Positions 1 through 62,310 of a DNA stretch of 64,000 nucleotides are shown piece after piece. The translations under genes were made by a program, and so were the position numbers. The DNA is from Variovorax sp. Root411 (GTDB lineage: Bacteria; Pseudomonadota; Gammaproteobacteria; Burkholderiales; Burkholderiaceae_C). The stretch lies in the NCBI RefSeq assembly GCF_001425205.1, contig NZ_LMDW01000015.1, positions 1-64,000 of the forward strand, in the 5' to 3' direction. Below the pieces are notes generated by a model that saw only the letters and a list, made by a program, of their open reading frames with translations, was not told the origin of the DNA and made no database searches. How positions within the stretch are numbered: position 1 is the stretch's first letter; each line of letters opens with the position of its first letter.

Positions 1-92
1 GTGCACAGGGCGTCGGGTGCTCCCCGCAGCGAAATAAAGGAGGAGCGAAGCGGGGGACATTCGCGGAGGGGAGTACCCGGCGGCCTGTGCAC
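1..92 (+). repeat. Palindromic repeat, family A (copy A1)
   Basis: About 92 bp with complementary ends: GTGCACAGG at 1-9 and CCTGTGCAC at 84-92, followed inward by TCGGGT-CTCCCC and GGGGAG-ACCCGG. The centre carries the family core GAAATAAAGGAGGAGC next to GCGGGGGACATTCGC. The same element recurs at 41,913-42,002 (same orientation) and 60,884-60,975 (reverse orientation). It lies downstream of purT. In the other loci an A element is paired with a B element; here a partner, if any, would lie left of the window edge. Confidence 0.9.
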
Positions 93-117
93 GCGCCCCG
101 AACAAGAGGCGCCCAAG

Positions 118-6025: not shown

Positions 6026-6043
6026 GCTTCTTTCGGGGGGCGT

Positions 6044-6133
6044 GCGAATGACACCGGGTACTCCCCTCCGCGAATGTCCCCCGCCTTCGGCTCCTCCTTT
6101 ATTTCGCTGCGGGGAGCACCCGGTGCCATTCGC
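6044..6133 (-). repeat. Palindromic repeat, family A (copy A2)
   Basis: Core in minus orientation (GCTCCTCCTTTATTTCGC). The inner arms CCGGGTACTCCCC and GGGGAGCACCCGG match A1 and A4, but the outer arms are GCGAATG (6044-6050) and CATTCGC (6127-6133) instead of GTGCACAGG/CCTGTGCAC. Outer sequence differs yet complementarity is kept. It is immediately followed by B2 in opposite orientation. Confidence 0.85.
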
Positions 6134-6134
6134 C

Positions 6135-6224
6135 TCACGCCGATGGGGTGCCTTGCGCAGCGAAATAAAGGAGGAGCCCGAAGGGCGGGGGACATTCGCG
6201 GAGCAAGGTACCCCGTCGGCGTGA
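6135..6224 (+). repeat. Palindromic repeat, family B (copy B2)
   Basis: Core in plus orientation (GCGAAATAAAGGAGGAGC). Arms are TCACGCCGA (6135-6143) and TCGGCGTGA (6216-6224), then GGGGT-CCTTGC paired with GCAAGG-ACCCC. The TCACGCCGA arm type is shared with the B elements at 41,777-41,868 and 61,020-61,075. A2 and B2 abut with one base between them and form an inverted pair between the BON-LysM terminator and the rhodanese gene. Confidence 0.85.
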
Positions 6225-6240
6225 TCGTGCCCGGAACGAC

Positions 6241-7940: not shown

Positions 7941-8040
7941 CCCCCAGGCTTCGCGCACTTCGTGTCGCTTCTCCTTCCCCCTTCCAGGGGGCAACACCGG
8001 TGGCCCGGCAAAGCCGGTTCCACGGTGTTCCACGAATGGG
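7941..8040 (+). repeat. Structured intergenic repeat, family C (copy C1)
   Basis: Begins at the base after the dctP stop. It has a small hairpin of CCCCC and GGGGG followed by a larger one: AACACC (7993-7998) with GGTGTT (8024-8029), GTGG (8000-8003) with CCAC (8020-8023), CCGGC (8005-8009) with GCCGG (8013-8017), loop AAA. The second copy is at 33,713-33,809, also between two genes of a transporter operon, with compensatory pair changes. Confidence 0.88.
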
Positions 8041-15136: not shown

Positions 15137-17059
15137 ATGAACCCATCCGCCATTTCCATGCATTCCGCCACGCTGCGCCGCTGGCTGCTCGGCCTGGCCA
15201 TGCTGTGCGTCGGCCTCGCGGCCAGCGCCCAGCAGGACCCGCCGGGCCGCGTGGCCCGTCTCAACTTCCACCAAGGCACCATCAGCTTCGCGCCGGCCGG
15301 CGACGACAGCTGGTACGACGCGCAGCCCAACCGCCCCATCACCACCGGCGACCGCCTCTGGACCGACCGCAACGCCCGCGCCGAGGTGTACATCGGCTCG
15401 GCAGCCCTGCGGCTCGACGGGCAGACGCACGTGGAGTTCTCCGAACTCGACGACGACACGGCGCGCATCACCTCGAACCAGGGCAACCTGCAGCTGCGCG
15501 TGCGCGACGAGCTGGCAGGCCAGCGCGTCGAGATCGACACCGGCAACCTCGCCGTGGTGATCGACGCGCCGGGCGAATACCGCATCGCCTCCGATCCGGC
15601 CGCCGGCACCACCTGGGTGGCCGTGGCCTCGGGCCGCGCCACGCTCTACGGCGAGAACGGCCAATCGCAGTCGCTGGGCGCGCGCCAGCAGCTCACCGTG
15701 TCGGGCCGCGACCTCTCCGCCGTGGGCGGTGCGCCGTCGCAGGCTGGCGGCTTCGACGCCTGGGTGGCCGAGCGCAACCGCCTCGAGGACCAGTCGGTCT
15801 CGGCGCGCTATGTGTCGCGCGAGGTGGTCGGCTACCAGCAACTCGACAACTACGGCGACTGGCAGAACGACGCCACGTACGGCGACGTCTGGTTCCCGCG
15901 CAACGTCGATGCCGACTGGGCGCCGTACCGCGACGGCCAGTGGGTCAACGTCGCGCCGTGGGGCCTGACCTGGGTCGATGCCGCGCCGTGGGGCTTCGCG
16001 CCCTTCCACTACGGCCGCTGGGCGCGCGTGGGTCCGCGCTGGGGCTGGGTGCCGGGGCGCACGAGCGGCCGGCCGGTGTATTCGCCGGCACTGGTCGGCT
16101 TCGTGGGCGGCGGCGGCGCAAACGCGGGCGTCCAGATCGGCAACGGCCGCAGCGGCGTGGGCTGGTTCCCGCTGGCCCCGGGCGAGCAATGGCGCCCCGG
16201 CTACCACGCGAGCCAGCGCTATGTGGACCAGGTGAACCGCATGGCCATCTACAACCGGACAGGCGGGCCGCGCAACGACTTCTATGCCAACCAGCAGATG
16301 CCGGGCGCCGTGACCGTGCTGCCCGCCGACCGCTTCGGCCGCGGCCCCTTCGGCCGGCGCGACCTCGTGCGGCTGCCGGACGACCGCTTTGCGCGCGTGC
16401 CGGTGGCCCCCACGCCGGGCGTCGCGATCAACGGCTTCGGCGGCGGCTTCGGCCGGCCCGCCGCAGTGGTCCCGCCGGCTGCGGCGCTGATGGCGCGGCA
16501 GCAGCAGATCCAGCTCCAGCAGGCGCAGCAACAGCAATTGATGCAGCAGCGCGCGGCACAGGCCACGCAGCAGCAACAACATCAGCAGCAGTCGGAATGG
16601 CAGCGCCAGCAGGACTGGCGTCAACAACAGGATGGGCGAGCGCAACAGGATTGGCGCCAGCGCGGCGAGCAGGAGCGTTGGCAACAACAACAGCAACAAC
16701 AACAGGCGCTGCGCCAGCAGCAGGAAATGCAGCAGCGCGCGGCGCAGGCGCAAGCCCAGCAGCAGCAACAGCAACAGCAGCTTCAACAACAGCAGTTGCA
16801 GCAACAGCGCGCGGCCCAGCAACAGCAGCAGCAGCTTCGCCAGCAACAGGAAATGCAATTGCGTGCCGCGCAGGCGCAGCAGCAGGCGCAAGCCCAGCTG
16901 CAGGCCCAGCAGAACGCGATGCGCCAGGCACAGGAGGCCCAGTTGCGCGCGATCCAGCAGCAGCGCGGCATCGCGCCAGCACCGCAGCAGCCGCAGCCGC
17001 CAGGCCAGCAGCGCAGCGACGATCCGCGCAGGCTCTGGACCTCGCCCGACTCGCGCTGA
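15137..17059 (+). CDS. Secreted FecR-like, Trp-rich protein with a long Gln-rich C-terminus
   Basis: 640 aa with a signal peptide ending near ASAQQ (residue 32). Residues about 45-190 resemble a FecR-type beta domain ([20 protein letters not shown]...[13 protein letters not shown]). Residues about 235-325 form a Trp/Pro/Gly-rich block ([20 protein letters not shown], then more WG repeats) as in DUF6600 proteins. From about residue 453 to 620 the chain is dominated by Gln with Ala and Arg, encoded by mixed CAG/CAA codons, and probably forms an extended or coiled-coil arm. It is divergent from the dikinase-like gene (141-bp gap). Function unknown; an envelope role is inferred. Confidence 0.82.
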
Positions 17060-23743: not shown

Positions 23744-24754
23744 ATGCCCCAGTCGCCTTCCGTTCCCCTCTCCCGCCGCAGCTTCTCGGCATGGATCGCG
23801 GCCTCGGCCGCAGCAGTCGGCGGGGGGCAGGCCGCCCTCTGGCCGCGCGCCGCGCACGCCGCCGACGCGCCCGTGAGCAGCAGGCTGCGCATCGTGATTC
23901 CCGCCAATGAAGGCGGTGGCTGGGACCAGACCGGCCGCGCGCTCGGCGCCGCGATGCTGGCGTCCGGCGCGGTCGGCAGCGTGGTGTACGAGAACATCGG
24001 CGGCAAGGGCGGCACCATCGGCCTGGCGAAGTACGCCGAGAAATACGATGCGGACCCCGACACGATCCTGATGAGCGGCATGGTCATGGTCGGTGCGGTG
24101 GCGCTGCAGAAGCCCGCCGTCACCATGGCCCACGTGGCGCCCATCGCCCGCCTCACCAGCGACTACGAGGTGGTGGCGGTGAAGGCCGATTCGCCCATCA
24201 AGACACCCAAGGACCTGATCGCGCAGCTGCGCGCCGATGCGGCCAACACCGTCATCGCAGGCGGCTCGGCCGGCGGCGTGGACCACATGTACGCCGGCAT
24301 GCTGGCGCGCGTGGCCGACGCCTCGCAGACGCTGGTCTACCAGCCGCACCCCGGCGGCGCGGAGGTGGTCGAGGCGCTGGCCAGCGGCAAGGCCGCGGCG
24401 GGCATCTCGGGCTACAGCGAATTCAGCGAAGGGCTGGCCAGCGGCAAGCTGCGCGCCATCGGCGTGTCGTCGAAGCGGCCGTTCCAGGGCATCGCGTCGG
24501 TGCGCGAGCAAGGCGTGGACGCCGATCTCGCCAACTGGCGCGGCGTGCTCACCGGCCGCAAGGTGCCGCCCTATCGCAAGGCGGCTCTGCTCGCCGTGGT
24601 ACGGCGCGCCACCGCCACCGATCTGTGGCAAAAAACCATCAAGCAGAACAACTGGGACCCCTTCTGGCTGGAGGGCAAGGATTTCGAGAATTTCCTCGAA
24701 ACCGACACGGCGATGGCCGGCCCGCTGATCTATCTGCTCAAGCTGAAAGCCTGA
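23744..24754 (+). CDS. Bug/TctC-family solute-binding protein, Tat-exported (copy 1)
   Basis: 336 aa from the ATG at 23,744. A twin-arginine-type signal (LSRRSFSAWIAASAAAVGG) ends near AHAAD, so the product is periplasmic. The mature protein (RLRIVIPANEGGGWDQTGRALGAAML, ENIGGKGGTIGLAKYAEKYD, LVYQPHPGGAEVVEALASGK) is of the tripartite tricarboxylate transporter receptor family; ANEGGGWDQTGR is the variant of the ligand loop typical of TctC-like carboxylate binders. No tctA or tctB gene is adjacent. It is the first of two tandem paralogues that are nearly identical after the signal peptide. Ligand unknown, probably an organic acid. Confidence 0.9.
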   Translation: MPQSPSVPLSRRSFSAWIAASAAAVGGGQAALWPRAAHAADAPVSSRLRIVIPANEGGGWDQTGRALGAAMLASGAVGSVVYENIGGKGGTIGLAKYAEKYDADPDTILMSGMVMVGAVALQKPAVTMAHVAPIARLTSDYEVVAVKADSPIKTPKDLIAQLRADAANTVIAGGSAGGVDHMYAGMLARVADASQTLVYQPHPGGAEVVEALASGKAAAGISGYSEFSEGLASGKLRAIGVSSKRPFQGIASVREQGVDADLANWRGVLTGRKVPPYRKAALLAVVRRATATDLWQKTIKQNNWDPFWLEGKDFENFLETDTAMAGPLIYLLKLKA

Positions 24755-24865: not shown

Positions 24866-25873
24866 ATGCCGCAACCCGTGCCAGCCGGCCTTTCTCGCCG
24901 CAGCCTCGCTGCATGGATGGCATCAGCCGCCGTTGCGGGCGTGGTGCCCGAAGCGTTCTGGCCCCGGTTGGCTGGCGCGGCCGAACCGCAGCTGATCCCC
25001 AAGCTGCGCATCGTCATTCCCGCCAACGAAGGCGGCGGCTGGGACCAGACCGGCCGTGCGCTCGGTGCCGCGATGCTGGCGTCCGGCGCGGTGGGCGACG
25101 TCATTTACGAGAACATCGGCGGCAAGGGCGGCACCATCGGCCTGGCGAAGTACGTCGAAAAATACGACGCCGATCCCGACACCCTGCTGGTGAGCGGCAT
25201 GGTCATGGTCGGTGCGGTCGCACTGCAGAAGCCTGCCGTCACGATGGCGCAGGTCGCCCCCGTGGCACGGCTCACCAGCGACTACGAGGTGGTGGCGGTG
25301 AAGGCCGACTCGCCCATCAAGACACCCAAGGACCTGATCGCGCAACTGCGCGCCGATGCCGCCAAGACGGTCATCGCCGGCGGCTCGGCCGGCGGCGTGG
25401 ACCACATGTACGCCGGCATGCTGGCGCGCGTGGCCGGCAACGCAGCCGCACTGGTCTACCAGCCTTACCCCGGCGGGGCACAGGTGGTCGAAGCGCTCGA
25501 ATCGGGCAAGGCGGCCGCCGGCATCTCGGGCTACAGCGAGTTCAGCGACGGCTTGGCCAGCGGCAAGCTGCGCGCCATCGGCGTATCGGCCAAGCGTTCG
25601 TTCCTGGGCATTCCGGCGGTGCGCGAACAGGGCGTGGACGCCGACCTCGCCAACTGGCGCGGCGTGCTCACCGGCAAGAAGGTCCCGGCCGAACGCCGCG
25701 CCGTGCTGCTCGAAGCCGCGCGCCGCGCCACCCAGGCCGACCTCTGGCAAAAGACCATCAAGCGCAACAACTGGGACGCGTACTGGATGGCGGGCAAGGA
25801 CTTCGAGAGCTTCCTCGACCTCGATACGGCGATGGCCGGCCCGCTGATCTATCTGCTCAAGCTCAAAGCCTGA
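24866..25873 (+). CDS. Bug/TctC-family solute-binding protein, Tat-exported (copy 2)
   Basis: 335 aa, paralogue of the protein at 23,744. The signal again carries a twin arginine (LSRRSLAAWMASAAVAGV) and ends near AGAAEPQ. The mature part differs at scattered positions only (for example KYVEKYDADPDTLLVS against KYAEKYDADPDTILMS). Both keep the ANEGGGWDQTGR loop and the C-terminal MAGPLIYLLKLKA. The two may have diverged in expression or in ligand fine-tuning. The convergent regulator gene ends 12 bp beyond its stop. Confidence 0.9.
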   Translation: MPQPVPAGLSRRSLAAWMASAAVAGVVPEAFWPRLAGAAEPQLIPKLRIVIPANEGGGWDQTGRALGAAMLASGAVGDVIYENIGGKGGTIGLAKYVEKYDADPDTLLVSGMVMVGAVALQKPAVTMAQVAPVARLTSDYEVVAVKADSPIKTPKDLIAQLRADAAKTVIAGGSAGGVDHMYAGMLARVAGNAAALVYQPYPGGAQVVEALESGKAAAGISGYSEFSDGLASGKLRAIGVSAKRSFLGIPAVREQGVDADLANWRGVLTGKKVPAERRAVLLEAARRATQADLWQKTIKRNNWDAYWMAGKDFESFLDLDTAMAGPLIYLLKLKA

Positions 25874-33712: not shown

Positions 33713-33809
33713 CCCCCAGGCTTGCCCACTTCGTGTGGCCTCCTACCCCCTCGCCGGGGGCAATACCAGCGGCCCGGCAAAGCCGGTTCCGCGGTATTCC
33801 TGAAATGGA
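33713..33809 (+). repeat. Structured intergenic repeat, family C (copy C2)
   Basis: Starts 12 bp after the ATPase stop. Hairpin: AATACC (33,762-33,767) with GGTATT (33,793-33,798), GCGG (33,769-33,772) with CCGC (33,789-33,792), CCGGC (33,774-33,778) with GCCGG (33,782-33,786), loop AAA. Relative to C1, a C-G pair has become T-A and a T-A pair has become C-G. An upstream CCCC/GGGG hairpin is also kept. Confidence 0.88.
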
Positions 33810-40774: not shown

Positions 40775-41752
40775 TTGAAACGCCTCACCTTCCTGCTGGT
40801 CGCCTGCGCCACGTTCATGACGGCAATGCCGGCCGTTCACGCGGCCGACGCCTTTCCCGCCAAGCCGCTGATGCTGGTCGTCCCCTTCCCGCCCGGCGGC
40901 CCTACCGACGCCATGGCGCGCACGCTCGCCGCCGAGATGAAGGACCGTCTCGGCCAGCCCATGATCGTGGAGAACCGTGCGGGCGCCGGCGGCAACATCG
41001 GCGCCGAGTACGTGGCGCGCGCCGAGGCCGACGGCCACACGCTGCTGTTCGGCACTTCGGGCCCGCTGGCCATCAACGCGAGCCTGTACCGCAAGATCAA
41101 CTACGACCCGGTGAAGAGCTTTGCGCCGGTGATCCAGATCGGCTACCTGCCCAACATCCTCGTGGTGAACCCCGCGCTGCCGGTGAAGAACGTGCCCGAG
41201 CTCGTGGCCTACGCCAAGGCCAACCCCGGCAAGCTCAGCTATGCCTCGTCGGGCAACGGCGCGTCGTCGCACCTTGCGGGCGTGCTGTTCAACTCGGTGG
41301 CCGGCACCGACCTGCAGCACATTCCCTACAAGGGCACGGGCCCGGCGCTCAACGACCTGCTGGGCAACCAGGTCAGCATGACCTTCACCGACATCCTCAC
41401 GGCGCTGCCCTACGTCAAGGCCGGCAAGCTGCGCGCGCTGGGCGTGGCCACCGTCGCACGGTCGCAGGCGCTGCCCGACGTGCCGACGATTTCGGAGCAG
41501 GGTTACAAGGGCTACGACGTGAGCGTGTTCTTCGGCATCGTCGCGCCGGCCGGTACGCCCGCCGATCGCGTGACCAAGCTCAACCACGCCTTCGCCGAGG
41601 TGCTGAACTCGCCCAAGGTGAAGCAGATGTTCGCTGCCCAGGGCCTCGAGGTGCCTGCCGATACCTCGCCGCAGAAGCTCGGGCAGTTCATCGGTGCCGA
41701 GTCGGTGAAGTGGAAGGACGTGGTGAAGAAGTCGGGGGCGCAGTTGGACTGA
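40775..41752 (+). CDS. Bug/TctC-family solute-binding protein, TTG start
   Basis: 325 aa. The TTG at 40,775 is supported by GGAGA at 40,764-40,768 and by the signal peptide it begins (LKRLTFLLVACATFMTAMPAVHAADA). The mature protein has the classic Bug pattern: FPAKPLMLVVPFPPGGPTDAMARTLA, ENRAGAGGNIGAEYVARAEADGHTLLFGT, IPYKGTGPALNDLLGNQVSM. No TctA/TctB genes are near. It is cotranscribed with the acyl-CoA dehydrogenase and probably binds the acid that the pathway degrades. Repeats B3 and A3 follow its stop. Confidence 0.92.
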   Translation: MKRLTFLLVACATFMTAMPAVHAADAFPAKPLMLVVPFPPGGPTDAMARTLAAEMKDRLGQPMIVENRAGAGGNIGAEYVARAEADGHTLLFGTSGPLAINASLYRKINYDPVKSFAPVIQIGYLPNILVVNPALPVKNVPELVAYAKANPGKLSYASSGNGASSHLAGVLFNSVAGTDLQHIPYKGTGPALNDLLGNQVSMTFTDILTALPYVKAGKLRALGVATVARSQALPDVPTISEQGYKGYDVSVFFGIVAPAGTPADRVTKLNHAFAEVLNSPKVKQMFAAQGLEVPADTSPQKLGQFIGAESVKWKDVVKKSGAQLD

Positions 41753-41776
41753 ATTGATGGTTGTTGTTCAGGGGGG

Positions 41777-41868
41777 CGATCCCGCCGACGCGGTGACCTT
41801 TTTCGCGAATGCCCCCCGCTTCGCTCCTCCTTTATTTCGCGAAAAAGCCCCCCGCATCGGCGTGATCG
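41777..41868 (-). repeat. Palindromic repeat, family B (copy B3)
   Basis: Arms begin CGATCCCGCCGACGCGG (left) and end CCGCATCGGCGTGATCG (right), then TTTTTCGCGAA pairs with TTCGCGAAAAA. The core GCTCCTCCTTTATTTCGC is in minus orientation. It begins 24 bp after the Bug gene stop and forms an inverted pair with A3. Confidence 0.87.
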
Positions 41869-41912
41869 TTCAGAGCACCGGTTGATCAGCGATACCACCA
41901 GCAGCGTGCCCC
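41869..41912 (-). repeat. Conserved spacer of the A-B composite repeat
   Basis: These 44 bases, read on the minus strand, contain ACGCTGCTGGTGGTATCGC and TGATCAACCGGTGCTCTG. The spacer at 60,976-61,019 has the same order on the plus strand (GCGCTGCTGGTGTACCGC and TGATCAACCAGTGCTCTG). A plus-strand TGATCA at 41,883-41,888 is a palindrome in its middle. Confidence 0.8.
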
Positions 41913-42002
41913 GTGCACAGGGCGTCGGGTGCTCCCCGCAGCGAAATAAAGGAGGAGCGAAGCGGGGGACATTCGCGCAGGGGAGTACCCGGCGGCCTGT
42001 GC
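41913..42002 (+). repeat. Palindromic repeat, family A (copy A3), ending at a gene start
   Basis: Almost identical to A1 (GTGCACAGG left arm, CCCGGCGGCCTGTGC right arm). The last bases of the right arm are altered (CC instead of AC) and the CoA-transferase ATG follows 3 bases later at 42,006. The repeat thus supplies the whole leader in front of that start codon. Confidence 0.9.
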
Positions 42003-42005
42003 CAA

Positions 42006-43145
42006 ATGACGCAACCTCAAGGCGCCCTCGCAGGCATCCGAGTCCTCGACATCTCCCGCATCCTCGGCGGCCCCTATTGCGGCCAGATCCTCGGCGACCA
42101 CGGCGCCGACGTGCTCAAGGTCGAGCCACCGCAGGGCGACGACACGCGCACCTGGGGCCCGCCGTTCAAGGAAGGCGTGGCTTCGTACTACCACGGCCTG
42201 AACCGCAACAAGCGCGTGCAGCACCTCGACTTCTCGACCGAGGAAGGCCGCGACGCACTGATCGCTTTGGTGGCCGAGGCCGACGTGCTGATCGAGAACT
42301 TCAAGACCGGCACCATGGAGCGCTGGGGCATCGGCTACGAAGAACTGTCGAAACGCTTCCCGCGCCTCGTGTGGTGCCGCGTGTCCGGCTTCGGCGCCGA
42401 CGGCCCGCTCGGCGCGCTGCCCGGCTACGACGCCGCCGTGCAGGCCATGACCGGCATCATGAGCATCAACGGCGAGGCCGACGGCGGTCCGCTGCGCGTG
42501 GGCCTGCCCGTGGTCGACATGGTGACAGGACTCAACGCCGTCATCGGCGTGCTGCTCGCGCTGCAGGAGCGCAACCGCAGCGGACGCGGACAGTTCGTGG
42601 AGGCGGCGCTTTACGACAGCGGCCTCTCGCTGCTGCACCCGCATGCGGCCAACTGGTTCATGGACGGCACCGCGCCGCGCCGCACGGGCAACGCGCATCC
42701 CAACATCTATCCGTACGACGCACTGGCCACGGGCACCGACCCCGTGTTCGTCGCGGTCGGCAACGACCGGCAGTTCGCGATCCTGTGCCGCTGCATCGGC
42801 CTGCCCGGCCTGGCGGACGATCCGCTCTACCGCACGGCCGGCGCGCGCTCGGTGCATCGCGATGGGCTCAAGCAGCAGCTCGAAGCGGCGATGGCGGCGT
42901 TCGACGGCCGCGCGCTCGTCGAGCAGCTGATGGCCGCCGGCGTGCCCGCCGCGCCGGTGCTGCCGGTCGATGCCGCGCTCCAGCACCCGCACACGCTGCA
43001 CCGCGAGATGGTGGTCGAGATGCCCGGCGGCTACCGCGGCATCGGCGCGCCGGTCAAGCTGAGCCGCACGCCGGCAAGCTACCGGCATGCGCCGCTCACG
43101 CCGGGCAATGCCTTCCTGCCCCTGGACGAATCAGCGCAACAGTGA
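42006..43145 (+). CDS. Class III (CaiB/BaiF family) CoA-transferase
   Basis: 379 aa from the ATG at 42,006. It moves CoA between carboxylates, for example formyl-CoA- or succinyl-CoA-dependent activation. Family marks: GIRVLDISRILGGPYCGQILGDHGADVLKVE at the N-terminus, NFKTGTMERWGIGYEEL, and the catalytic Asp in LPVVDMVTGLNAVIGVL (about residue 169). An in-frame GTG at 41,913 would add 31 residues translated entirely from repeat A3; the same peptide could be read from A1, which has no gene attached, so the longer start is rejected. No good ribosome-binding site precedes the ATG. Confidence 0.88.
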   Translation: MTQPQGALAGIRVLDISRILGGPYCGQILGDHGADVLKVEPPQGDDTRTWGPPFKEGVASYYHGLNRNKRVQHLDFSTEEGRDALIALVAEADVLIENFKTGTMERWGIGYEELSKRFPRLVWCRVSGFGADGPLGALPGYDAAVQAMTGIMSINGEADGGPLRVGLPVVDMVTGLNAVIGVLLALQERNRSGRGQFVEAALYDSGLSLLHPHAANWFMDGTAPRRTGNAHPNIYPYDALATGTDPVFVAVGNDRQFAILCRCIGLPGLADDPLYRTAGARSVHRDGLKQQLEAAMAAFDGRALVEQLMAAGVPAAPVLPVDAALQHPHTLHREMVVEMPGGYRGIGAPVKLSRTPASYRHAPLTPGNAFLPLDESAQQ

Positions 43146-59423: not shown

Positions 59424-60869
59424 ATGAACCGCAATCTCACCTCCACGCCCCTGGGCAACAACCTGCTGCTTCGCACCGACTCCTACAAGGTGTCGCACTG
59501 GATGCAGTACCCGCCCGGCACGCAGACGGTGTACAGCTACATCGAATCGCGCGGCGGCATCTTCAGCCACTCTCTCTTCTTCGGCCTGCAGGCCTACCTG
59601 CGCGAATACCTGCAGACGCCGGTGACGCTGGCCGACGTGGAGGAAGCCGCCGCACTCATGGCCGTGCACGGCGAGCCTTTCAACCGCGAAGGCTGGCTGC
59701 GCCTGATCGAGAAGCATGGCGGGCTGATGCCGGTGCGCATCCGCGCGGTGCCCGAGGGCAGCGTGCTGCCGGTGCACAACGTGCTCGCGACCATCGAGAA
59801 CACCGACCCCGAGTTCTTCTGGGTCACGAGTTTTCTCGAGACCGAGTTGCTGCGCGCCATCTGGTATCCAACCACGGTGGCCACGCTCTCGGCCGCCGCG
59901 CGCACCACGCTGCTGCGGTACCTCGAAGCGACCTGCGACGACCCGCAAGGGCAGATCGCCTTCAGGCTGCACGACTTCGGCGCGCGCGGCGTGTCGAGCC
60001 TCGAATCGGCCGCGCTCGGCGGCATGGCCCACCTGGTGAACTTCATGGGCACCGACACGCTGGCCGCACTGGTGGCCGCGCGCCGGTATTACGACTGCGA
60101 CGTGGCGGGCTTCTCGATTCCCGCGGCCGAGCACAGCACCATCACGGGCTGGGGCCGCGACCATGAAGCCGACGCCTACAGCAACATGGTCGACCAGTTC
60201 GGCAAGCCCGGCGCGACCTTCGCGGTGGTGAGCGACAGCTACGACATCTTCAACGCCTGCGCGCGCATCTGGGGCGGCGAGCTGAAGGCGAAGGTGATGG
60301 CCTCGGGCGCGACGCTGGTGGTGCGGCCCGATTCGGGCGACCCGGCCGAAACCACGCTGAAGGTGGCGCAGATCCTGGCCGAGCGCTTCGGCACGACGAC
60401 CAATGCCAAGGGATTTCGCGTGCTGAACAATGTGCGCATCATCCAGGGCGACGGCGTGAACCTCGACTCGCTGCGGTTGTGCCTGTCGAACTTCTTCCAC
60501 AACGGCTTCTCGACCGAGAACATCTCCTTCGGCATGGGTGGCGGGCTGTTGCAGCAGGTCAACCGCGACACGATGCAGTGGGCGATGAAGTGTTCGGCCA
60601 TGCAGGTGAACGGCGAGTGGCGCGACGTGTACAAGTCTCCCGTGGGCGATGTGGGCAAGGCCTCGAAGAAGGGGCGGCTCGCGCTGGTGAAGAACCTGCG
60701 CGGCGAGGTGCAAACATTGCGTGAAGAGGCGCTCTCGGCGGGGCAGAGCGATCTGCTGCAGACGGTGTTCGAGAACGGGCGCATCGTCGAGAGCACTGCG
60801 TTCGAGGCTGTTCGGGAGCGGGCGGCTATCGGGGTGAATCAGTTCATTACTTCTCGGGCGCCGCTCTGA
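59424..60869 (+). CDS. nadV: Nicotinamide phosphoribosyltransferase (NAMPT)
   Basis: 481 aa. Joins nicotinamide and phosphoribosyl pyrophosphate to give NMN. The N-terminus LLLRTDSYKVSHWMQYPPGTQTVYSYIESRGG and the active-site block SIPAAEHSTITGWGRDHEADAYSNMVDQF with the catalytic His match human NAMPT and bacterial NadV; LVVRPDSGDPAETTLKV is the PRPP region. AAAGGAG precedes the ATG. With nadM it bypasses nicotinamide deamidation. Rare in betaproteobacteria outside some lineages, so horizontal acquisition is possible but not shown; base composition is like the neighbours. Confidence 0.95.
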   Translation: MNRNLTSTPLGNNLLLRTDSYKVSHWMQYPPGTQTVYSYIESRGGIFSHSLFFGLQAYLREYLQTPVTLADVEEAAALMAVHGEPFNREGWLRLIEKHGGLMPVRIRAVPEGSVLPVHNVLATIENTDPEFFWVTSFLETELLRAIWYPTTVATLSAAARTTLLRYLEATCDDPQGQIAFRLHDFGARGVSSLESAALGGMAHLVNFMGTDTLAALVAARRYYDCDVAGFSIPAAEHSTITGWGRDHEADAYSNMVDQFGKPGATFAVVSDSYDIFNACARIWGGELKAKVMASGATLVVRPDSGDPAETTLKVAQILAERFGTTTNAKGFRVLNNVRIIQGDGVNLDSLRLCLSNFFHNGFSTENISFGMGGGLLQQVNRDTMQWAMKCSAMQVNGEWRDVYKSPVGDVGKASKKGRLALVKNLRGEVQTLREEALSAGQSDLLQTVFENGRIVESTAFEAVRERAAIGVNQFITSRAPL

Positions 60870-60883
60870 GGCTTCAGGGGCGC

Positions 60884-60975
60884 GTGCACAGGACACCGGG
60901 TACTCCCCTCCGCGAATGTCCCCCGCTGCGCTCCTCCTTTATTTCGCTGCGGGGAGCACCCGGTGTCCTGTGCAC
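60884..60975 (-). repeat. Palindromic repeat, family A (copy A4)
   Basis: The most symmetric copy: GTGCACAGGACACCGGGT on the left is answered by ACCCGGTGTCCTGTGCAC on the right, with CTCCCC/GGGGAG inside, giving 25-base arms with a single mismatch. Core GCTCCTCCTTTATTTCGC in minus orientation. It begins 14 bp after the nadV stop and could also end transcription on either strand. Confidence 0.92.
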
Positions 60976-61019
60976 GAGGGCGCGCTGCTGGTGTACCGCT
61001 GATCAACCAGTGCTCTGGA
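60976..61019 (+). repeat. Conserved spacer of the A-B composite repeat
   Basis: 44 bases that match the reverse complement of 41,869-41,912 at most positions, including GCTGCTGGTG, CGCTGATCAACC and GTGCTCTG. The spacer is conserved although it is not part of either palindrome, so the A-spacer-B unit spread or was copied as a whole. Confidence 0.8.
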
Positions 61020-61075
61020 CGATCACGCCGAAGCGGGGGACATTCGCGAAAAAGGTCACCGCGTCGGCGTGATCG
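61020..61075 (+). repeat. Palindromic repeat, family B (copy B4), internally deleted
   Basis: Ends CGATCACGCCGA and TCGGCGTGATCG are as in B3, but only 56 bp separate them instead of 92. Compared with B3 read on the same strand, a 36-base stretch including the AAATAAAGGAGGAGC core is missing; the break falls at repeated CGA triplets. Confidence 0.85.
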
Positions 61076-61155
61076 CGCCCCAGACCCAAGCCCCCTGCAG
61101 CAGCAAGCAGAAGTGCCACACGCCATAGCCATAATCCGCGCAACTTCCGGAATTC

Positions 61156-62310
61156 ATGACCAAACTCCTGATCCTCAGCGTGAGCGCCGGCAACGGCCAC
61201 GTGCGTGCAGCACAGGCGCTTGCCGCCACCGCCCAGTCCCTCGCCCCGCCCTGCACAGCGGTCCACATCGACGCGATGGCCCACGTGGCCGGCGGCTTCC
61301 GCAAGGTTTACACCGACTGGTACATCCAACTGGTGAACCGCGCACCCGAGCTGTGGTCGTACCTGCACCAGCGCACCGACAGCACGCCGCACCACGCGCC
61401 CTCGCAGCGCCTGCGCCGCGGCATCGAACGGCTGAGCACCGGCGCCCTCGTGAAGGAGATTCGCCGCGAGAAGCCCGATGCCGTGGTCTGCACGCACTTC
61501 CTGCCGGCCGAGCTGCTGATGCGCGAACGCAACCGCGGCCGCATCGACTACCCGGTGTGGCTGCAGATCACCGACTACGACCTGCACAACATGTGGCTGG
61601 TGCCCGGCATGGCCGGCTACCTGGCCGCGACGGAAGAGGTGGCGTTCCGCCTGCGCGCGCGCGGCATTCCTGCGGACCGCATCCACGTCACCGGCATTCC
61701 GGTGATGCCGGCGTTTTCCGAACCCGATGTGCCGGCGCTCGCTCGCAACGCCTGCGTGGCGGAACTCGGCCTCGATCCTTCGCGGCCCGTGCTGCTGATG
61801 GCATCTGGCGGCGCGGGGGTCGGCGACCTGGCGAGCATGGTCGAACGCGTGCTCGGTCTCGGCGGTGAGGGCAACTTCCAGGTCATCGCCGTGGCGGGCC
61901 GCAACGTGGAAGCGCACGGCAAGCTCGAAGCGCTGGCCCAACGCTACCCGGGCCGCGTGGTGGCCATCGGCTTCACCAACGAGATGCACAAGATGATGGC
62001 CGCGGCCGACCTCGTCGTGACCAAGCCCGGCGGCCTCACGGTGTCCGAATGCCTGGCACTCGGCAAGCCGATGCTGCTGATCTCGCCCATTCCGGGGCAG
62101 GAGGAGCACAACGCCGGCTTCCTGATGGAGGAAGGCGCGGCCTGGCTTGCCTACGACGCCATCGGGCTCGACTACAAGGTGGCGCGCCTGATGGCCGACC
62201 CCGCCAAGCTCGCGCACATGGCCTCGCGCAGCCGGGCGCTGGGCAAGCCGCAGGCCGCGCGCGCGGTGCTGCAGCACGTGCTGGCTGCGCCGGCGGGAAC
62301 GGCGGCGTGA
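61156..62310 (+). CDS. MGDG synthase/UgtP-like glycosyltransferase (GT28)
   Basis: 384 aa. The N-terminal MGDG-synthase domain (LLILSVSAGNGHVRAAQALAA, THFLPAELL) and the C-terminal GT28 domain (LLMASGGAGVGDLASMVERVLG, VIAVAGRNVE, VTKPGGLTVSECLALGKPMLLISPIPGQEEHNAGFL) are complete. Relatives transfer glucose or galactose to diacylglycerol. The enzyme is probably membrane-associated at the inner leaflet. It overlaps the next gene by GTGA. A role in glycolipid synthesis, perhaps under phosphate limitation, is inferred from the family. Confidence 0.9.
   Translation: MTKLLILSVSAGNGHVRAAQALAATAQSLAPPCTAVHIDAMAHVAGGFRKVYTDWYIQLVNRAPELWSYLHQRTDSTPHHAPSQRLRRGIERLSTGALVKEIRREKPDAVVCTHFLPAELLMRERNRGRIDYPVWLQITDYDLHNMWLVPGMAGYLAATEEVAFRLRARGIPADRIHVTGIPVMPAFSEPDVPALARNACVAELGLDPSRPVLLMASGGAGVGDLASMVERVLGLGGEGNFQVIAVAGRNVEAHGKLEALAQRYPGRVVAIGFTNEMHKMMAAADLVVTKPGGLTVSECLALGKPMLLISPIPGQEEHNAGFLMEEGAAWLAYDAIGLDYKVARLMADPAKLAHMASRSRALGKPQAARAVLQHVLAAPAGTAA

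Follow-up and report, generated by a model that had tools for sequence, protein, structure and literature searches.

A palindromic mobile unit of Comamonadaceae, probably translated as a frame-tolerant bridge within operons

Among the small repeats described so far, the Rickettsia palindromic elements (RPE) are palindromic, about 150 bp long and repeated, and contain open frames that are translated with host genes (passages of PMC10969869 and PMC2229807), while the BOX elements of Streptococcus pneumoniae are modular palindromic repeats whose expressed open frames form operon extensions (passages of PMC3049150). ERIC/IRU, YPAL and Correia/NEMIS are likewise small non-autonomous repeats with open frames fused to genes, according to the relevant part of PMC2229807, and the 235-bp Chunjie MITE of Geobacter uraniireducens leaves operon structure undisturbed, judging by the title of the work cited in excerpts of PMC10969869. 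High-copy intergenic inverted palindromes are known as REP/BIME sequences and are associated with RAYT (excerpts of PMC2817692 and PMC3733652); these excerpts contain no Comamonadaceae, and Variovorax occurs once, in PMC2817692, in another connection. Finally, the BRE of Bordetella and other Betaproteobacteria is a repeat of this same class, about 90 bp long, with up to 29 copies in Polaromonas (part of PMC3110155). A literature search, conducted only partly by the names Variovorax and Comamonadaceae, returned no published description of the unit reported here.

The unit was encountered in the Variovorax sp. Root411 genome (6.06 Mb in 21 contigs), in a stretch of 64,000 nt that is referred to as the window (G000:C15:1–64000). 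An initial annotation of this DNA had drawn a composite of hairpin A, a 44-bp spacer and hairpin B from position 60,884 onward, with a second copy in the opposite orientation. The three parts were present at exactly these positions (Table 1) and were 91%, 84% and 93% complementary to 41,768–42,002 read in reverse (pairs I2, I5 and I4). The count of two copies was too low, as four touch the window, and hairpin B of the first copy, although correctly placed, was incomplete, as the core half CTCCTCCTTTATTTCGC and one of the arms are missing. Likewise, the core layout was drawn correctly but the unit extends further, with outer inverted repeats and, in better copies, tails, and the spacer, described as non-palindromic, contains, on inspection by eye, no self-complementarity beyond a brief CTGGT/ACCAG pairing. 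The gene upstream of the first copy encodes a product with Pfam matches to NAPRTase (6.1e-61) and NAMPT_N (5.8e-27). Three other repetitive stretches were observed in the window: an intergenic repeat with the core GGCCCGGCAAAGCCGGTTCC at 7,971–8,039 and 33,740–33,808 (83% identical), similar sequence also being found in the orthologous gaps of L280 and L296; a 300-nt direct repeat at 23,800–24,099 and 24,919–25,218 (82% identical, 1,119 nt apart), probably reflecting tandem paralogous genes; and a CAG/CAA-rich tandem stretch at 16,499–16,958, which would be glutamine-rich if translated.

Table 1. Copies of the unit in the window and features of the copy at 60,873–61,085.
Feature	Coordinates	Strand	Basis or remark
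Upstream gene, NAMPT-type nicotinamide/nicotinate phosphoribosyltransferase	59,424–60,869	+	ORF list; TGA stop at 60,867–60,869
Outer inverted repeat, A side, TCAGGGGCGC	60,874–60,883	+	Pattern scan
Hairpin A (A4)	60,884–60,975	+	Core at 60,912–60,947
Conserved spacer	60,976–61,019	+	Sequence comparison
Hairpin B remnant (B4)	61,020–61,075	+	One arm and core half CGGGGGACATTCGC at 61,034–61,047; rest deleted, compared with intact copies
Outer inverted repeat, B side, GCGCCCCAGA	61,075–61,084	+	Pattern scan
Downstream gene, MGDG-synthase-like glycosyltransferase	61,156–62,310	+	ORF list, Pfam
Second copy, gene->[B..A]->gene	41,757–42,002	+	Hairpin B core at 41,805–41,840, spacer, hairpin A core at 41,941–41,976
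Third copy, short A–B form minus most of the spacer	6,032–6,236	+	Between convergent genes
Fourth copy, comprising just hairpin A with its outer repeat	1–102	-	Cut by the contig edge

A scan of the whole genome with the core GCTCCTCCTTTATTTCGC, allowing up to 2 mismatches, yielded 183 matches (92 forward, 91 reverse), whereas the same pattern read backwards yielded none, which excludes an origin by chance or low complexity. With this 18-nt core and at most 1 mismatch, 79 of 100 Variovorax genomes were positive, with 0 to 343 matches per genome. Seven of 300 genomes of the order contained a 15-nt version of the core without mismatch: the Root411 genome, another genus of the family (G270, 13 matches) and five genomes with one match each, which may be chance matches. 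Named records with the core were, among the matches listed, mostly Variovorax but also Pseudorhodoferax and Xylophilus, together with single core matches in unrelated taxa; the only plasmid records were Variovorax megaplasmids (4 records in one search and 3 in another, unannotated). Spread on phages was rejected, since the core was absent from a phage search and from viral contigs searched for the exact 18-mer. In total, 77 distinct units (67 with two cores, 10 with a single core) of the approximately 90 implied by the 183 core matches were sampled in Root411, along with 58 pairs in 60 loci of a second species (G066), all within the first 2.6 Mb of a genome in which 289 exact cores imply about 145 units, and at least 80 loci from named records. 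The nearest copies were at most 95.7% identical in Root411 (median 90.9) and up to 98.4% identical in G066 (median 95.6). Thus, the many intergenic copies in A–spacer–B order by which the initial annotation had proposed to recognise a family were found in Root411 and in related genomes, and neither free shuffling of A, spacer and B nor a restriction to two loci was seen.

The complete unit spans about 230 bp between the outer inverted repeats, or about 300 bp with tails, and consists of the outer repeat TTCGGGGCGC, hairpin A, the spacer, hairpin B and the outer repeat GCGCCCCGAA, with tails on the outside that reach about 50–60 nt in the better copies. The terminal inverted repeats (TTCGGGGCGC/GCGCCCCGAA-like) are present and imperfect. 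The distance between the cores was 116–121 in the long form and 48–91 in short forms, which look like internal deletions rather than products of free shuffling. The earlier claim of an invariably opposed orientation of A and B largely stood: by a fixed rule, 62 of the 67 two-core units of Root411 were opposed, but 4 were scored as A–A and 1 as B–B. At L005, L008, L010, L023 and L240 each unit is without one outer arm, and the remaining arm indicates an A–B pair. Opposed orientation was seen in all 58 pairs of G066 and, at further loci, in 40 of 43 pairs (two too-short units and one ambiguous unit having been left out); in the remaining three the arms had diverged too far for the rule to apply. 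The palindromes of Root411 and G066 thus alternate in orientation, as they do in REP/BIME, and A and B as independent repeats were ruled out by the pairing kept in Root411, G066 and further loci.

The hairpin arms fall into several sequence types, with pairing kept within each hairpin: in 140 hairpins of Root411, 2638 of 3220 arm positions formed standard pairs compared with 1798 for shuffled partners, and in 159 hairpins from other loci the figures were 3101 of 3657 and 2030. The apical stem varies as well (GCTTCGC, GGCCTGCGGCC, GCCCTTCGGGC and longer forms), while a conserved purine internal loop, GCGAAATAAAGGAGGAG/CGGGGGACATTCGC, reads outward at both ends of the unit. Mismatches within the hairpins were mostly A–C on the strand with the pyrimidine core, equivalent to G–T on the strand with the purine core, where G–T prevailed 255 to 53 in Root411 and 363 to 24 elsewhere; the bias was similar for hairpin A (160:26) and hairpin B (193:31). 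Since A and B are carried by opposite strands and share the wobble bias, it is probably the outward-reading strand that folds at each end, which we interpret from these patterns as a probable DNA-level feature of mobility, and the purine-loop hairpins at both ends look like an end-recognition structure in DNA. A minimum-energy fold of the consensus predicted a single long hairpin in which A pairs with B, with no two local hairpins. An intercistronic RNA hairpin that stabilises, attenuates or otherwise regulates mRNA, perhaps through the Shine-Dalgarno-like AAAGGAGG or its complement, would also account for the strong arm covariation, the conserved purine loop and the scarcity of units between divergent genes (2 of 67 in Root411, 1 of 54 in G066). 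However, because wobble on the purine-core strand means opposite strands in A and B, no single transcript explains both hairpins, and a known RNA family was rejected, no Rfam family having reached its gathering score in the window and only weak, sub-threshold, hairpin-like matches having appeared at 41,700–42,100. We regard an RNA-level role as improbable.

That the unit was copied as a whole, as had been proposed, agrees with its conserved order at many places, but neither target-site duplications nor a cognate transposase was found. As for duplications, proposed earlier as a sign of transposition, matches between the two junctions of 33 units were no more frequent than in shuffled pairings (p 0.46 upstream, p 0.73 downstream of the ATG); duplications suspected by eye at three sites failed this shuffle test. 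The unit is nevertheless non-autonomous and multi-copy and has sites that are empty in relatives, all features of MITEs, and a composite mobile unit is well supported. The search for a cognate transposase covered one family genome-wide, PF01797, and returned a sole RAYT-like Y1_Tnp gene (G000:C1:281,108–281,440, or 1,501–1,833 of L061), whose product scored 74.2 bits against the NCBIfam model REP_Tyr_transpos (cut-off 80). If the unit were a REP/BIME family mobilised by such a RAYT (a tyrosine transposase of the Y1 type) and its translation secondary, this gene and the paired inverted hairpins, read as single strands, would fit, but we consider this very improbable: no core with up to 4 mismatches lies within 1.5 kb of the gene, 96 of the 100 Variovorax genomes carry the gene, among them each of the 21 without a core, four genomes with 4 to 32 cores (three of them incomplete assemblies) show no Y1_Tnp gene, and the hairpins, at about 90 nt, are far longer than REPs. 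The Y1_Tnp gene is single-copy in nearly all genomes and looks domesticated and vertically inherited. At one G066 locus (L311, 1,531–3,259), considered as a candidate autonomous version, the A and B cores are about 1.7 kb apart, either by insertion into the spacer or as a cargo-bearing form; three internal ORFs tried from this split pair had no Pfam match.

The flanks of 14 units were compared with four related genomes, and 30 orthologous loci were read for 13 of these units. No core was present within 650 bp in 28 of the 30, and at least 6 of these 28 (L277, L285, L289, L290, L292 and L293) keep pieces of the unit by eye, so that part of the absence reflects loss. Unit pieces also remain at the NAMPT site (L174) of G087, the closest relative found, and deletion of units is common. 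G087 has few intact units and carries deletion remnants at sites that are occupied in Root411 (L174, L277, L285, L289 and L293), which suggests that units were lost on a large scale or are missing from its assembly. At four sites (L014, L027, L031 and L039) the empty junctions, as read by eye in 12 loci, were tight, with -1, 1, 2, 4 or 6 nt between stop and start; at L252 the empty junction was loose in 3 loci, again by eye.

Gene contexts were called with a codon model trained on the genes of the window, the same rules being applied to G066, for which 4 ambiguous units were left out. The 67 units of Root411 were predominantly placed as gene->[B..A]->gene (49), with 5 as gene->[A..B]->gene, 11 between convergent and 2 between divergent genes. 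A similar distribution was obtained for 54 units of G066 (31 B->A tandem, 6 A->B tandem, 16 convergent, 1 divergent) and, among the matches listed, for 23 units from named records, the NAMPT site being excluded (18 B->A, 2 A->B, 3 convergent, 0 divergent). As called, all of these units (67 + 54 + 23) were intergenic and none lay inside a host gene. The flanking genes had Pfam matches fitting operons in 10 of 10 cases tried, for example an acyltransferase followed by a cytidylyltransferase, an efflux protein followed by a multicopper oxidase, and parts of ABC transporters. Typically, the stop codon of the first gene lies at the B end and the start codon of the second gene at the A end. The copy at 60,873–61,085 has the rare orientation, gene->[A..B]->gene. 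Both cores were found at the NAMPT site in the loci of 13 species, in 12 of 13 in this same reversed orientation, and the unit at this site is ancient. The Root411 copy is old, decayed, reversed and situated at a looser junction; it makes no bridge itself and is informative mainly as an entry point to the family.

Of the 98 tandem B->A units, 62 had an ATG between -4 and +4 nt from the upstream stop codon and 36 did not; under this rule, such an ATG was present at 5 of 73 gene ends in other contexts. The stop–ATG gap was -4 in 19, -1 in 5, 0 in 7, +1 in 26 and +2 to +4 in 5 of these 62 bridging units. Termination–reinitiation coupling requires that genes overlap or lie much less than 20 nt apart (part of PMC10666635), and the bridging gaps match those of translationally coupled genes. 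In 42 of these bridging units the frame set by the ATG extended to the downstream gene: in 36 its stop fell between -4 and +19 nt from a start codon of that gene (13 at -4, 12 at +1), and in 6 it was fused in frame with the gene. The remaining frames closed early (11) or ended elsewhere (9). With reading started at the outer repeat, the two alternative frames reached the gene in 13 of 124 cases (11 by a stop near the start codon, 2 by fusion) and had early stops in 103; the control was started at the outer repeat because frame +1 from the ATG is biased by the stop contained in ATGA. The ATG frame coincided with the open body frame in 50 of 60 units (subsets 21/26, 8/11 and 21/23) against 23.7 expected for a random frame. 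Counts over copies are not independent, since the copies have common ancestry. When the test was anchored on a codon of hairpin B, the edge was modest (21/27 in Root411 versus 10/20 and 6/15). At the other end, the A end often reads (A/C)ACTGA-N-ATG, and in 51 of the 98 units a TGA lies 0–3 nt before the start codon or overlaps it. One frame stops at the TGA 1 nt before the start, one stops in the ATGA overlap and one fuses; all three outcomes occur. In the window, the copy at 41,757–42,002 begins with an ATG at 41,757 (gap +4 from the TGA at 41,750–41,752) and is followed by a downstream ATG at 42,006, but the frame set by the first ATG closes early at 41,885. From 41,886 onward the reading frame of the downstream gene is uninterrupted, and a GTG at 41,913 may allow a second restart within the unit.

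Both the peptide and its frame vary among copies, typical translations being SGRDHADGVPCSANVPR in Root411 and SGRRSRRHGALFRECPPLRSSFISRK in G066, both open to the end. Between L055 and L319, which are copies from two species at the outer-membrane efflux protein–multicopper oxidase junction of a copper operon, 11 gaps are not multiples of three, and each copy keeps a complete stop-to-start frame despite these frame-shifting gaps. Since frames differ among copies yet stay open, it is translatability that appears to be selected, and not the peptide. That the units encode a family of genuine small proteins, each some 110 residues long, would account for the recurrence of complete frames with start and stop in operons but is hardly credible given the shifts of the peptide frame between copies, the absence of a Pfam match for 8 of 8 translations and the absence of an NCBIfam match for three of four, the fourth having been below the cut-off (E = 0.028). 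This fourth translation (L027, 1,468–1,758, minus strand) weakly matches NF040902, the CCxxC prefix domain of NuoF, at a sub-threshold level, and perhaps other prefix domains are translated repeats.

The strand and context of the open frames differed between samples. In G066, an open frame was present on the B->A strand in 44 of 54 units and on the opposite strand in 11 (closed in 43), and units without any open frame were restricted to other contexts (9/23, versus 0/23 in the bridging context). Root411 showed no such difference (2/26 bridging versus 2/18 other), and among the matches listed in named records units without an open frame were 2/11 in the bridging and 1/5 in other contexts, with the two strands equally open (18/23 and 17/23). 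The independence from context in Root411 would be expected of an ordinary MITE- or BIME-like unit that prefers stop/start junctions, its orientation following from this preference and its open frame being a by-product of a GC-rich palindrome with ATG and TGA ends. Such a unit would be palindromic, repeated and intergenic with outer inverted repeats, as observed, its empty sites would be tight junctions, and open frames are known in many small repeats (passages of PMC2229807 and PMC3049150). A by-product does not readily explain, however, that the ATG-set frame is the open one in 50 of 60 units against 23.7 and reaches the gene in 42 of 62 cases against 13 of 124, that copies differ in frame and by frame-shifting gaps, or that the opposite strand is mostly closed in G066 even though it has the same composition and the unit is nearly self-complementary. 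We consider this reading unlikely, though less so than the other alternatives.

We favour, with a probability of roughly two in three, the reading that the Root411 copy belongs to a non-autonomous palindromic mobile unit of Comamonadaceae that, as the sequence comparisons suggest, is translated as a frame-tolerant bridge keeping operon translation coupled. In its common orientation the unit typically opens with an ATG overlapping or adjoining the upstream stop codon, and in the sequence the frame so set mostly stays open. Ribosomes finishing the first gene would reinitiate at the unit, open up its hairpins while translating it and then pass to the second gene, and an insertion into a tightly coupled operon would thereby be non-polar. 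By means of such a bridge the unit may spread without silencing downstream genes. A more specific version, to which we give even odds, is that the unit is selfish DNA made polarity-neutral, mimicking a stop–start junction at both ends and being translatable in whichever frame arrives, with host selection keeping its openness and not its peptide. In this version, ribosomes arriving in any of the three frames could be received at the A end by (A/C)ACTGA-N-ATG(A).

If the bridge is real, ribosome read-through would be a general answer to the question of how structured repeats spread in gene-dense, coupled operons, and the single orientation of the copies would be explained. The cost of an insertion would be testable by one reporter experiment, and the unit would be a natural frame-tolerant linker for synthetic operons. 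Caution would also be advisable with small hypothetical proteins annotated in such operons, which may be translated repeats and not genes.

Compared with the systems described above, RPE are in-frame inserts inside genes, whereas the Variovorax unit is intergenic and docked with its own start and stop, with fusions in 6 of 62 cases; this comparison is made by description only (passages of PMC10969869 and PMC2229807). In BOX elements frames occur on both strands and stop–start docking is not described in the relevant passages of PMC3049150, while the orientation of the Variovorax unit follows gene direction. The part of PMC2229807 that treats ERIC/IRU, YPAL and Correia/NEMIS makes no mention of a two-ended docking with gaps of -4, -1 or +1, and the Chunjie MITE differs by its direct repeats (excerpts of PMC10969869). 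REPs are 20–40 bp long and carry a GTAG- or CGTC-type tag (excerpts of PMC2817692 and PMC3733652), in contrast to the Variovorax unit, which is without a cognate RAYT association. BRE, for which no operon docking is described in the corresponding part of PMC3110155, were set apart by description. As far as these partial sources go, open frames in small repeats are already known, and what is new in the Variovorax unit is docking at both ends with gaps of -4, -1 or +1 together with frame tolerance.
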